In this document: one piece after another, positions 8,855-14,530 of the stretch | Layout: each line of letters opens with the position of its first letter | Position numbering within the stretch: the first letter of the stretch is position 1 | Assembly (NCBI GenBank): GCA_015491145.1 | Contig: WFWM01000056.1 | Location: 1 to 19,657 of the forward strand | Reading direction: 5' to 3' | DNA: 19,657 bases | Origin: Patescibacteria group bacterium | GTDB lineage: Bacteria > Patescibacteriota > Minisyncoccia > Phycocordibacterales > UBA12088 | The notes under the pieces: generated by a model | Told to the model about the DNA's origin: nothing | What the model saw: the letters and a program-made list of their open reading frames with translations, nothing else | Database searches by the model: none | Program-made: the position numbers and the translations under genes

Positions 8855-9127
8855 CTACTCCAGCACCACTACCTCATCATCGCGCACATGGCATACCCCT
8901 CCCGAAAGGGAGATGACGGCTGAGGAAGGACCTTGCTCTTGCTCTTGCTCTTGCTCTTGCTCTTGCTCTTGCTTAACCCGAAGCATCCCCTCCCGGAGCA
9001 GGAAGAAGCTTTCTGCATGCCCGGGGAGCACCTCCGCCTCTCCCCAAGCCGCAGGGAGAATCACCCTCCGTACTCGCGGAAAGATGTGGGACGTTTGGGG
9101 AGAGAAAACTGCAACACGCATACTCAT
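8855..9127 (-). CDS. atpC: F-type ATP synthase subunit epsilon, beta-sandwich domain only, with (QE)n tract
   Basis: Epsilon links gamma to the c-ring. The N-terminal beta-sandwich is recognisable: VILPAAWGEAEVLPGHAESF (22-41) and the final strands SLSGGVCHV and EVVVLE. The protein stops at residue 90, exactly where that domain ends, so the two-helix C-terminal domain (inhibitory in many bacteria) is missing; usual length is about 130-140. Between two strands it carries a Gln-Glu tract (residues 53-65) encoded by seven perfect CTTGCT repeats on the plus strand. The ATG at 9127 overlaps the atpD stop by 1 nt (TGATG), with GAGGTG upstream, so translation is coupled. It is the last gene of the operon and converges with tRNA-Arg. 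Confidence 0.9.
   Translation of the reverse strand: MSMRVAVFSPQTSHIFPRVRRVILPAAWGEAEVLPGHAESFFLLREGMLRVKQEQEQEQEQEQEQGPSSAVISLSGGVCHVRDDEVVVLE
8932..8973. repeat. Hexanucleotide microsatellite (CTTGCT)7 inside atpC
   Basis: Seven uninterrupted copies of CTTGCT (42 bp) on the plus strand encode alternating Gln and Glu on the minus strand. The 6-bp unit keeps the frame, so copy-number changes would lengthen or shorten the loop by two residues at a time. Confidence 0.95.
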
Positions 9128-10533
9128 CACCCCACCTCATCGAGCGTTCCCACCATATAGAATGCTTCGACATCGACCGCATCGTACTCCCCTGCGAGAA
9201 TGCGTTCGCAACCCTCCAGAGTTGCAGAAAGCGGCACCGCCACCCCCTTTTTGTGCTGGAACGCTTCTGTCGTGAAAAGCGGCTGGGTGAGGAACCGTCG
9301 AAGGCGCTCTGCTCGCTGCACCACAACACGATCCTCCTTGGGGAGTTCCTCTACTCCTAAGATGGCGACAATATGGGAAAGCTCTTCGTAGCGTTGGAAT
9401 ATGTGGCGCACCTCCGAGGCAATAGCGTAGTGACGCTCGCCCACAATTTCCTTATCGAGACTCACCGAGTACGATCGAAGGGGATCAACCGCAGGGTAGA
9501 ACCCCTTCTCCGCCAGTTGCCGGCTCAACACGAGCGCACTATCGAGGTGAGCGAAAATGGCAACCACCGCAGGATCGGTGAGATCGTCTGCTGGCACATA
9601 CACCGCCTGGAAGGAAGTGAGAGAACGCCTTCCTCCTGCGTAAATCCTGTCTTGGAATTCTGCAATGTCCCGCTCGAGTGTCGGCTGGTAGCCAAGCTCC
9701 GAGGGAACCTTCCCCAGCACCGCACCCATTTCCATCCCGGCCATTGCGTAGCGAAAAATGTTATCAACAAAGAGGAACACGTCGCGTCGCTTCGTCTCAC
9801 TGAGAAACATTGCCGCTTCTGCGGCAGCGAGCGCGACCCGAAAACGGGCACCGGGCGGCTTGTCCATTTCTCCAAAGTAGAGGGTGGTGTGGTCAAGCGC
9901 TCCCAGCACCTTGAGTGATTGATACAACTCATTCCCTTCCCGAATACGCTCCCCTACCCCGGCGAACACCACGAGGCCGAGTTCACGCGTAGCAATATTG
10001 TGGATGAGTTCAGTAATGAGCACCGTCTTCCCTACCCCCGCACCTCCAAACATCCCCACCTTACTCCCTCTCCGAAGCGGTGTGAGGAGATCAATCACCT
10101 TGATACCCGTCTCAAGGAGAGAACCGTCGCCTCCTCCCGCTGGCAGCACGGTCGCTCCATCAAATTCCTGCTCCTGCCGGGGAGGAAAGAGTGGACGATG
10201 CTGCCGGGCTCGGAAAGGCTTCCCATCGATCGGATTACCTACCGCGTCAAACATACGGCCAACCATTGCCGGCGCCACGGGAATGCTGATAGCACCATGC
10301 GAGATAACCCTGCTGCCTTGGATGATGCGCCCAAGGGGAGAGAGGGCAATGGCCCTCACGCGATGCGGGGAAACCTGTTCTACCACCTCGAGAAAGAACG
10401 ATCCCGCTTCATCAGTAAGGAGTGTATGCAGAGGGGGAACTCCTCCCTCGCAGGCTACCTCTACCGCTCCTCCCCGCATTCCCACGACAAACCCCTTCCA
10501 CTGCTCCTCTCGCTTTTCTCTGGGACGACTCAT
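9127..10533 (-). CDS. atpD: F-type ATP synthase subunit beta
   Basis: Beta is the catalytic F1 subunit, here 468 residues. Catalytic residues are all present: P-loop GGAGVGKT (163-170, Lys169/Thr170), the general base Glu195 in GERIREGNE, Asp257 and Arg261 in FVDNIFRY, and VPADDLTDP. The DELSEED lever is VEELPKED (394-401), still acidic and in the right place. Length is normal, so the enzyme should hydrolyse or make ATP. The ATG at 10533 overlaps the atpG stop (ATGA), and atpC overlaps its own stop, so A-G-D-C are translationally coupled. Confidence 0.97.
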
Positions 10534-11405
10534 ACGGCTTGGTGCGCAACAAACGCTTCAATTTGCTTCCGACTCACCTCTCCGTGCCACTCTTTCAGGT
10601 AGCGTCGATGGAGAATGAGCATCTGCTGTTCAAGCTCCTGCGAGGCATTCTCCGCGGCAACCATCCGAGCAGCCAATTCCGCAAGGGTCGCATCAAATAC
10701 CATAGCACGGAACGCAATGTCTCCATACCGCTGCACGAGCGCATCGAATACGCCCCATCGCGAAGGCTCAAAAATAGGCAACCCATCTCCCGAGCGTATC
10801 TCTTCCTTCCCTTCTCTACCCCGCTGAGCCTCCTCCACGAGCGGGAAGGAAAGGAGCTGCTCCAGCTTCGCCTCTTGCCGTGCGAGGGAGCGGAAGGAAG
10901 GATAGAGCACAGCAATTTCTCGGAACGATCCCTCAAGGAACGCTTGGAACAAGTAGTTCCCAAGTGAGGCCTTCCGTTGGAGCGCCTCATCGAAATCTAC
11001 GGTCCCCTCTGTCTCGATGTATCGAAATGGAATACCCTCCTCCTGCAAGTACTGCGCTCCCCTCCTCCCCACCACCCAAAGGTGGTCCCAACGCTCCCGC
11101 TCCTGCAGCGCACGCTCTGCAAGCATATGGAACAAGCCGCCGACGACACCACGGTCACCGGTCAGCACCACGAGTAACCGCCCGCCACGCTCGCGTCGCT
11201 GGAAGAAGGGGTGGCGATCGTTCCAGTAGAAATGGGCAAGGCGACAGATAAGCCGCTCGAGCTGCTCCTTATACGCAACGAGGGACGCCACACGCTTTCG
11301 AAGTATGTGGATGTGAGACCCCGCCACTTTCTCCATAATGCGGAGGGTCTCGTCGGTTTCCCGCATAGACCGGAGCTCGTCTCTGAAGCGGAGGTAGTGT
11401 TTCAT
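10530..11405 (-). CDS. atpG: F-type ATP synthase subunit gamma
   Basis: Gamma is the central rotor shaft of F1, here 291 residues. The N-terminal helix keeps the family pattern around IMEKVAGSH (23-31; E. coli AMEMVAASK). The Rossmann-like middle begins [16 protein letters not shown], and the C-terminal helix includes [17 protein letters not shown], corresponding to the E. coli ASEQAARMVAM segment. The termini are divergent from textbook sequences but the overall plan and length are normal. It overlaps atpA by 4 nt (ATGA) and atpD by 4 nt. Confidence 0.94.
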
Positions 11406-13461: not shown

Positions 13462-13523
13462 AGGAGAGAGCGTTACCCTGCTAAGCGTCCAACAGGCGCA
13501 TTGTCTTTAGCATACGCCCCTCG

Positions 13524-14285
13524 CTACAATCCAGCAACGCGTCCGGGTGTCGTTCCCCGCCACGCGATACTCGTTTTAAAGAACGCGAGCGTCAGCATCG
13601 CAAAGACGAACGCCTGCACCACTCCCACGAACACCTCGAGCGCCATAAAAGGCACAGGGATCACATACGGCAGGAGAAATGCAACGACAAGCAGAAGCAC
13701 TTCTCCTGCAAAGATATTGCCGAAGAGGCGGAAAGAGAAAGAGAGCACCTTCGCCGCCTCGGAAAAGAGCTCGAAAAACCCGAGGAAGAGGTGGAGCACA
13801 CTCTTCACACTGAAGAAGCGGGAAAGGTACGCCCGAGTACCGATGGTTTTGAGAGCGAGTATATGGATTGCCCCCACCGCCACGAGCGCAAGGGCAAGCG
13901 TGGTGGTGAGGTCGCTGTTGGGAGATCGCAAGAGCGGCACCTTTCCTTCAGAGGTTGCCACCGAAAGCGAGCCGAGAAAGCCGGGCAAGAGTGCGAGGAG
14001 GTTGGCGGTGACGATGAAAAGGAAGAAGGTGGCAATGAGGGGAAGGATCCTTTTGGAAAGTTCTCTATCTCCCGTGACCCGATCGGTCAGCCACAAGAGT
14101 TCCAATACGATGACCCGGAGGACCTTACTCTCCAGCCACTCCTTCCGTGAGAAGGAGGACAACGCCGCAAACACGATCAAAAAGACAGAGACGAGCACGC
14201 TCGTGAGAAAGGTATTTGTGATCGGGTAGCCAAAGATGGTCGCTACGTACTCGGGTTTGAAGGTGACGGAGAGCATACCGCTCAT
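13524..14285 (-). CDS. atpB: F-type ATP synthase subunit a, second operon
   Basis: This 253-residue membrane subunit has the stator Arg186 in SFSFRLFGNIFAGE, Glu195 at the E. coli Glu219 position, and Glu217 and Gln224 in ALEVFVGVVQAFVF. The N-terminal region with FGYPITNTFLTSV and the TANLLALLPG segment are also family-typical. The ATG at 14285 overlaps the atpI stop (ATGA); the frame is open further upstream but that part is the shadow of atpI. The protein is clearly a different lineage from the first operon's a (Glu vs Lys at the 219 position, different N-terminal half), so this is not a recent duplication. Confidence 0.95.
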   Translation of the reverse strand: MSGMLSVTFKPEYVATIFGYPITNTFLTSVLVSVFLIVFAALSSFSRKEWLESKVLRVIVLELLWLTDRVTGDRELSKRILPLIATFFLFIVTANLLALLPGFLGSLSVATSEGKVPLLRSPNSDLTTTLALALVAVGAIHILALKTIGTRAYLSRFFSVKSVLHLFLGFFELFSEAAKVLSFSFRLFGNIFAGEVLLLVVAFLLPYVIPVPFMALEVFVGVVQAFVFAMLTLAFFKTSIAWRGTTPGRVAGL

Positions 14286-14530
14286 TTCCGCTGCGCATCT
14301 TGTAGAAGGATTACTAAGAGATCCCGCACCTCGCGCGCCGTCAGGAACACGCCTCCCACCGCACCACCCAGCAGGAAGAGCGGTGAGGTGTGGAGGTGGC
14401 GGTCTATCCACGCTCCGAGAAGGAGGAATCCTCCGATAGGGACAACAATGAGGAAACCGAGCTGGAGCGCAAAGGCAAGCGCATACCATACTTTCCCTTC
14501 CCGATTCTGCTCACCTTCCCGACGCTCCAT
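14282..14530 (-). CDS. atpI: AtpI/AtpZ-like small membrane protein heading the second ATP synthase operon
   Basis: A short protein of about 82 residues with two hydrophobic segments: ALAFALQLGFLIVVPIGGFL and FLLGGAVGGVFL, separated by GAWIDRHLHTSP. The pattern W-x-x-x-L-x-x-Q-L-G-x-x-I-V-x-P and G-x-W-x-D is that of the ATP synthase gene 1 / AtpZ group, assembly or ion-handling helpers found at the head of many atp operons. The start is uncertain: ATGs at 14557, 14542 and 14530 are in frame. 14530 is chosen because a CGG-TATGGT box (like the tRNA promoters) ends 15 nt before it. It overlaps atpB by 4 nt and lies downstream of tRNA-Ala(CGC). Confidence 0.8.
   Translation of the reverse strand: MERREGEQNREGKVWYALAFALQLGFLIVVPIGGFLLLGAWIDRHLHTSPLFLLGGAVGGVFLTAREVRDLLVILLQDAQRK

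Follow-up and report, generated by a model that had tools for sequence, protein, structure and literature searches.

An F-type ATP synthase operon without delta in a Patescibacteria genome and the clade that shares its reduced stator

Introduction

In F-type ATP synthases, delta/OSCP is regarded as the clamp between the F1 head and the peripheral stalk, and its N-terminal domain binds the N-terminal helix of subunit alpha. What, then, holds the motor in an enzyme that is encoded without this clamp? The question is raised by an operon on the minus strand (positions 8855-14530) of a 19,657-nucleotide contig from a Patescibacteria group bacterium (WFWM01000056.1), the whole of which we refer to as the window. 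The operon encodes alpha, beta, gamma, epsilon, a, c and b of an F-type ATP synthase and lacks delta/OSCP. An earlier note, made from the sequence alone, had read it as three linked losses (the delta gene, the start of alpha and the end of b) in an enzyme with intact catalytic residues, pointing to a rebuilt peripheral stalk, a different partner or no classic stator.

We consider it probable, if not by much, that the operon encodes a functional, laterally spread, proton-type F-ATPase belonging to a distinct and mostly Candidate Phyla Radiation (CPR)/Patescibacteria clade, with a minimal stator made of b only. The observations behind this explanation are the gene content, the losses, a fusion found in relatives, the clade itself and the inserted-looking site of the operon.

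An operon without delta

The gene order, atpI-a-c-b-alpha-gamma-beta-epsilon, is the one given in the earlier note, and each family was recognised by Pfam:

14282-14530, minus: atpI/AtpZ-like small membrane protein (PF09527, 44.8 bits, scanned as 14282-14599; ATG at 14530)
13524-14279, minus: subunit a (PF00119), essential Arg R184 at the position of E. coli R210
13246-13461, minus: subunit c, 71 residues (PF00137), with the ion-binding Glu54 aligned to E. coli Asp61
12855-13217, minus: subunit b, short form of 120 residues (PF00430; ATG at 13217), ending at about E. coli b residue 117
11402-12841, minus: subunit alpha without the N-terminal delta-binding helix (TIGR00962 above cut-off; PF00006/PF00306)
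10530-11405, minus: subunit gamma (PF00231)
9127-10533, minus: subunit beta (TIGR01039 above cut-off; PF00006), with Ser at the position of E. coli Glu193 (Met counted)
8855-9130, minus: subunit epsilon, beta-sandwich domain only (PF02823)

Only 13 nucleotides separate the stop codon of b (ending at 12855) from the ATG of alpha (12841), and the operon holds no atpH, just as previously described. The other readings made at this junction also held: the alpha P-loop Lys149 aligns with Lys175 of E. coli K-12, b is 120 residues long, and no longer form of alpha is available, given that the 11 open in-frame codons upstream of its ATG include no ATG, GTG or TTG. The predicted structure of the window alpha, which we used for the N-terminal strands only (mean predicted local distance difference test score, pLDDT, 64.3), opens with a strand at residues 4-11.

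Within epsilon, positions 8932-8973 hold a run of a 6-bp repeat encoding a Gln-Glu stretch in a loop where E. coli is gapped. The epsilon of the genome's second, ordinary enzyme (contig C72, see below) also looks short.

A clade that shares the losses

GTDB species genomes were scanned with the alphas of the window and of G056 (a contig of genome G770, locus L157), using two short peptide patterns. Among the best 80 of 140 relatives, 19 loci carried alphas at 55-66% identity, and the next ones stood at 39-48%. The 20 clade loci considered here are a lower bound. Their genome titles name Falkow-, Moranii-, Campbell-, Andersen-, Peregrini-, Yonath- and Kaiserbacteria, Parcubacteria group bacterium and WWE3. 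One locus, L074 (JAACEG010000032.1), is labelled Lysobacteraceae; its genome is about 700 kb, its alpha lies inside the CPR clade, and it is probably a mislabelled bin.

In a midpoint-rooted alpha tree of 70 rows, the 20 clade rows form one side of a 100/100 branch, with eight Omnitrophota/Planctomycetota alphas as their sister (100/99) and 14 N-ATPase alphas in a separate group (99/97). The gene order of the window is common to the clade loci wherever the contig shows it, except that c precedes a in L074 and that other open reading frames (ORFs) lie within the operon in L063, L071 and L079. In L079 these ORFs, between alpha-gamma (8489-10001) and beta-epsilon (12276-13301), look by eye like a pair of ABC transporter genes and a phosphoesterase gene. 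L067 has its F1 genes behind a secA-like gene; no b was found next to alpha, and this locus was excluded from the b counts (n = 19 of 20 loci).

Alpha lacks the delta-binding helix in all 20 clade loci. With the most upstream in-frame start taken as the beginning of alpha, its first strand is preceded by 4-28 residues (4 in the window, at most 17 in 19 of the 20), the outlier being L074 with 28, or 9 from an internal ATG. The corresponding stretch measures 24-38 residues in 45 ordinary CPR rows (3 duplicates), where an IVEKLKKEIE-like motif recurs, 28 in E. coli, 13-25 in the eight Omnitrophota/Planctomycetota rows and 26-50 in the 14 N-ATPase tree rows. The alpha sites specific to the clade gave no readable binding patch.

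The space between b and alpha is 81 nucleotides or less in 19/19 loci, with no ORF and no room for delta. The window shares the traits of the clade in all three respects (position of its alpha, truncated alpha start, no room for delta). Absence of the delta gene and truncation of alpha co-occur in 19/19 loci with b found, and judging from this pattern the two losses look old and coupled. Such coupling is expected because the delta N-terminal domain and the alpha helix are two faces of one interface. To this extent a rebuilt stator, as proposed earlier, was the right kind of explanation.

The end of subunit b

Subunit b occurs in two forms within the clade. A long b of 244-294 residues is found in 12/19 loci (255 or 259 in L070; cut at its start in L071), and a short b of 118-130 residues in 7/19, namely the window, L062, L064, L066, L068, L072 and L078; the short form of the window therefore recurs in 6/18 other loci. 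Short b stops just past a conserved EKxAVIAQIxSRL-like stretch, which is where the extension of long b begins.

Profile and fold comparison identify the extension of long b as the delta C-terminal domain. A profile of long b matched a set of delta-position proteins (41 from ordinary operons, with 3 duplicates, plus E. coli delta) at E 7.9e-11 over its C-terminal half, against 0.038-0.35 for five reversed controls; the match to E. coli delta alone was weak (probability 44). Consistent with this, a profile search of the PDB returned residues 101-172 of A. baumannii delta at 1.5e-5 and three other delta chains at 0.0034-0.0048, and NCBIfam delta models matched 2/6 long b at about 1e-6. The Pfam OSCP model found 6/12 long-b frames at E <=1e-3 in whole-genome searches and 1/10 long b, weakly (0.04), in single-protein scans. 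The predicted structure of the L063 b (mean pLDDT 81.0) ends in a strand-helix-strand-strand-strand-helix arrangement. In Foldseek, long b found the mycobacterial b-delta first and bacterial delta chains within the top 17 (E up to 0.001). Domain-only OSCP/delta chains scored 0.68-0.69 in target-normalised TM-score (TMt) but at E 0.016-0.066, and against whole deltas the query-normalised score (TMq) was low, about 0.22, with a root-mean-square deviation near 20. A comparable end is carried by N-ATPase-like b: the ends of 36 such proteins (beta seen upstream of alpha in 23) matched delta at 1.9e-11 and long b at 1.2e-13. TIGR03321 was the best NCBIfam model, below cut-off, for the window b and for 6/6 long b scanned.

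The three losses are therefore not one linked event, because 12/19 loci have a long b that carries the delta C-terminal domain. The linkage claimed in the earlier note stands for the absence of delta and the truncation of alpha, not for b, which is short in 7/19 only; the shortening of b is a separate change. When a, alpha, gamma and beta are combined in one tree, short b needs 4 changes, and a single short-b clade is rejected (approximately unbiased test, p 0.012), whereas the first 132 columns of the b alignment do not reject it (p 0.476). The pattern would fit repeated loss, b genes exchanged between lineages or an error in the tree.

Residues of the motor

Alpha K175 and R376 (E. coli numbering with Met) are kept in 20/20 clade rows, beta K156, E182, R183 and R247 in 17/17 clade betas, and the R210 of subunit a in 18/18 rows checked; the ion-binding Glu of c, checked in the window alone, is in place. 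The claim of intact catalytic residues thus survives for these alpha and beta positions and fails for beta Glu193 (Met counted), which is T, S, A, V or N in 17/17 clade betas (Ser in the window). Of 43 other betas, 35 have E at this position, 4 have D, 3 have T and 1 has A.

A second, ordinary ATP synthase in the same genome

The genome of the window (607-kb assembly, 84 contigs, 95.5% complete; the window is contig C56) contains another F-ATPase operon, whose start lies at the edge of the window and is syntenic with G001, a genome of the same genus. Its parts were identified by Pfam:

1-1400, minus: start of the ordinary F-ATPase operon, cut by the contig end
645-1400, minus: subunit a
276-506, minus: subunit c
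1-255, minus: subunit b, first 85 residues

Contig C72 ends inside gamma, followed by beta and epsilon (minus), and continues this operon. In G001, the ordinary operon encodes, between b and alpha, a protein of 141 residues (L038:5567-5992), which scores 18.1 bits against Pfam OSCP, under the cut-off of 22.3. A Pfam OSCP search gave no match in G001, and none in the 607-kb assembly, where it should be noted that the model also misses the delta-position protein of G001. The ordinary enzyme of the window's genome probably has its atpH in the assembly gap between C56:1 and C72:6543, which by comparison with G001 would also contain the remainder of b, alpha and the first part of gamma. A lack of atpH cannot be claimed for this genome, whose ordinary ATP synthase is interrupted just where that gene is expected; besides that enzyme, the genome holds a second, complete-looking one without delta. 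As a side observation, 32/38 OSCP matches in 98 relatives start no earlier than position 40 of the 172-position model, so that ordinary CPR deltas seem, by their alignment to the model, to lack or to have changed the first part of the N-terminal domain.

The other carriers were compared by counts of OSCP and PF00006 proteins, which rest on metagenome-assembled genomes of unstated completeness. A separate OSCP protein stands beside an ordinary alpha in 12/19 genomes reached through the loci. All 7 short-b genomes have another rotary ATPase, ordinary F-type in 4 (the window's included) and V/A-type in 3; the latter (G764, G766 and G770) have V/A-type A and B, no OSCP match and no ordinary F-type alpha. 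Four genomes, G761, G763, G767 and G777, show no alpha or beta other than those of the clade, and b is long in each of them. Sole carriage is thus seen in 0/7 short-b and 4/12 long-b genomes, a difference that is suggestive only.

A possible mechanism and its alternatives

The delta-less ATP synthase looks like a real enzyme variant, whose stalk must hold the motor in some other way. Mechanistically, the clade would have lost the delta N-terminal domain along with the alpha helix that binds it. In most members the delta C-terminal domain would survive as the end of long b, while in the window and six other loci it would be gone too, leaving a stator formed by a pair of b chains of about 120 residues. 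The b coiled coil would then hold F1 directly along an alpha/beta interface, by side contact and without a delta cap, and the conserved segment at the end of b (consensus AVIAQIxSRL) would be its likely grip. The part of b beyond the membrane segment, about 90 residues, would extend about 135 Angstrom if helical (1.5 Angstrom per residue), long enough to run up the side of F1. The complex would assemble and couple ATP to protons with no further stalk protein taking part. Protons are the expected coupling ion, as c gives by eye no sign of the Na+ signature, and the intact reading frames support a functional enzyme. That this is a coupled F1Fo ATP synthase whose stator consists of two 120-residue b alone, lacking delta/OSCP, any delta-derived domain and the alpha helix, is a more tentative proposal, to which we give slightly less than even weight on the sequences compared.

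Several points weigh against a functional, coupled enzyme of this kind. The loss of Glu193, an active-site residue, in 17/17 clade betas may mean that catalysis is altered. ATP synthesis may not be required of the short form, given the other rotary ATPase in 7/7 short-b genomes. Among the clade rows of the four-protein tree, that of the window diverges most (its end branch is 1.08 long, the median 0.42), and its epsilon shows the 6-bp repeat expansion. The clade assemblies are metagenome-assembled genomes, and an unrecognised partner protein may take part.

This last point can be put as an alternative in its own right, unlikely but deserving attention, in which an additional protein encoded elsewhere replaces delta and clamps b to F1. 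It would suit a short b without the part that binds delta in E. coli, and L067 shows that operons of this clade can be split. The interval between b and alpha contains no additional ORF, however, in 19/19 loci, and the window's genome yielded no OSCP match and no second piece like the delta C-terminal domain: a long-b profile matched only the two b genes there (E up to 10), in searches that a protein of another fold would escape.

About equally unlikely in our judgement is a specialised ATP hydrolase or leaky proton pump, in which a weak stator and an altered beta site serve to regulate or dissipate. The loss of beta Glu193 across the clade and the second rotary ATPase kept in every short-b genome speak for such an enzyme. 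On the other hand, the Arg of a and the Glu of c are kept, and in the four long-b genomes with only clade alpha and beta (4/12) the clade enzyme may be the sole ATP synthase.

Much less probable is a delta borrowed from the ordinary ATP synthase of the same genome. Such an enzyme is indeed present in 4/7 short-b genomes, the window's included, but both binding sites for delta are missing, and in 3/7 delta cannot be borrowed because there is no OSCP match and no ordinary F-type alpha, with the reservation that the OSCP model misses some CPR deltas and that these are metagenome-assembled genomes. Finally, an assembly or sequencing artefact, one of the refutations foreseen in the earlier note and one to which the gap in the ordinary ATP synthase might lend colour, can be dismissed, since the truncated alpha and the lack of room for delta recur in other genomes and b and alpha lie 13 nucleotides apart.

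Comparison with known enzymes

The window enzyme is ordinary in most of its catalytic parts and new, relative to Pfam, NCBIfam and the PDB, as a stator variant. It follows the gene order of the E. coli F-type ATP synthase minus atpH, and TIGR00962, TIGR01039 and TIGR01260 score above cut-off; what E. coli has in addition is atpH, the N-terminal helix of alpha and the terminal part of b.

N-ATPases (alternate F1F0 ATPases, TIGR03305/03306/03321-03324) likewise have no delta gene, and their b of about 250 residues has an end like the delta C-terminal domain. In contrast to the window, however, their beta (and epsilon) precede a-c-b-alpha-gamma, their alphas form a separate clade with 26-50 residues before the first strand (14 tree rows), and the window b has 120 residues and no such end, which is present in the long b of 12/19 clade loci. 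Membership was rejected, alpha and beta of the window scoring far under the N-ATPase cut-offs (TIGR03324 450.7 bits against a cut-off of 750.5; TIGR03305 499.2 against 752), and the earlier conclusion that this is not an N-ATPase is upheld by gene order and by the separate alpha clade.

The Omnitrophota/Planctomycetota F-ATPases (L086, L089, L090, L094, L099, L105, L109 and L116) have sister alphas with a short start (13-25) and a b of about 246-286 residues with the delta-C-like end, directly before alpha in 7/8. They differ from the clade in belonging to other phyla and in that no short b is found among seven of them (all but L109). These seven show the same reduction outside the CPR. The mycobacterial b-delta fusion (PDB 7jg5, 7njk), which gave the best Foldseek matches of long b, also joins b to delta; it has 445 residues and pairs with a separate b, unlike the long b of the clade, which has only the delta C-terminal domain, and unlike the window, which has none.

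The clade thus offers a natural series of stator deletions, of the delta N-terminal domain and the alpha helix and in some members of the delta C-terminal domain too, with which the minimal stator that a rotary ATP synthase needs becomes testable. If the enzyme is coupled with b only, torque transmission would not require delta/OSCP, and the stator would have been reduced step by step, the delta N-terminal domain and the alpha helix being followed by the delta C-terminal domain, perhaps repeatedly. Where a CPR genome shows no atpH, the cause can be a different type of enzyme rather than an assembly gap; here both occur in one genome.

Genomic site and other clusters

The inserted-looking stretch is bordered by two tRNA genes:

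8692-8764, plus: tRNA-Arg(CCG)
14627-14701, minus: tRNA-Ala(CGC)

These are 5862 nucleotides apart in the window and 286 in G001. The order of the neighbours, presumably MATE, thiI, ddl, uvrC and uvrA, is kept between the two. Between tRNA-Val and tRNA-Arg, which are 49 nucleotides apart in the window, G001 carries an extra 1.6 kb of its own, so that the tRNA-bordered site is variable in both genomes. Gain of the operon here and loss in G001 both fit; lateral gain is more likely because the delta-less clade is carried by just 2/397 genomes of the order and 4/379 of the phylum. Carriage on viral contigs was rejected: of two pattern matches, neither is a relative. The region is rich in tRNA genes, with seven in 12.4 kb (window 2292-14701) whose order and orientation are the same in G001.

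Relatives of the window's genome also contain F1-like clusters (L035:2371-8791, L036:2413-8687, L037:2176-8390, L039:2462-8620 and L040:2378-8990). Their order is a membrane protein, a b-like protein, a delta-position protein of 170-178 residues, alpha, gamma, beta and mostly epsilon, and their alphas are 31-35% identical to that of the window. Of the proteins scanned with Pfam (7 from L036, 2 from L035), one gave a weak OSCP match (0.016), and there is no a or c among the ORFs of the five clusters. From their gene content these clusters would encode an F1 motor that has no evident proton channel, resembling to some degree the F1-like ATPases of mycoplasmas.

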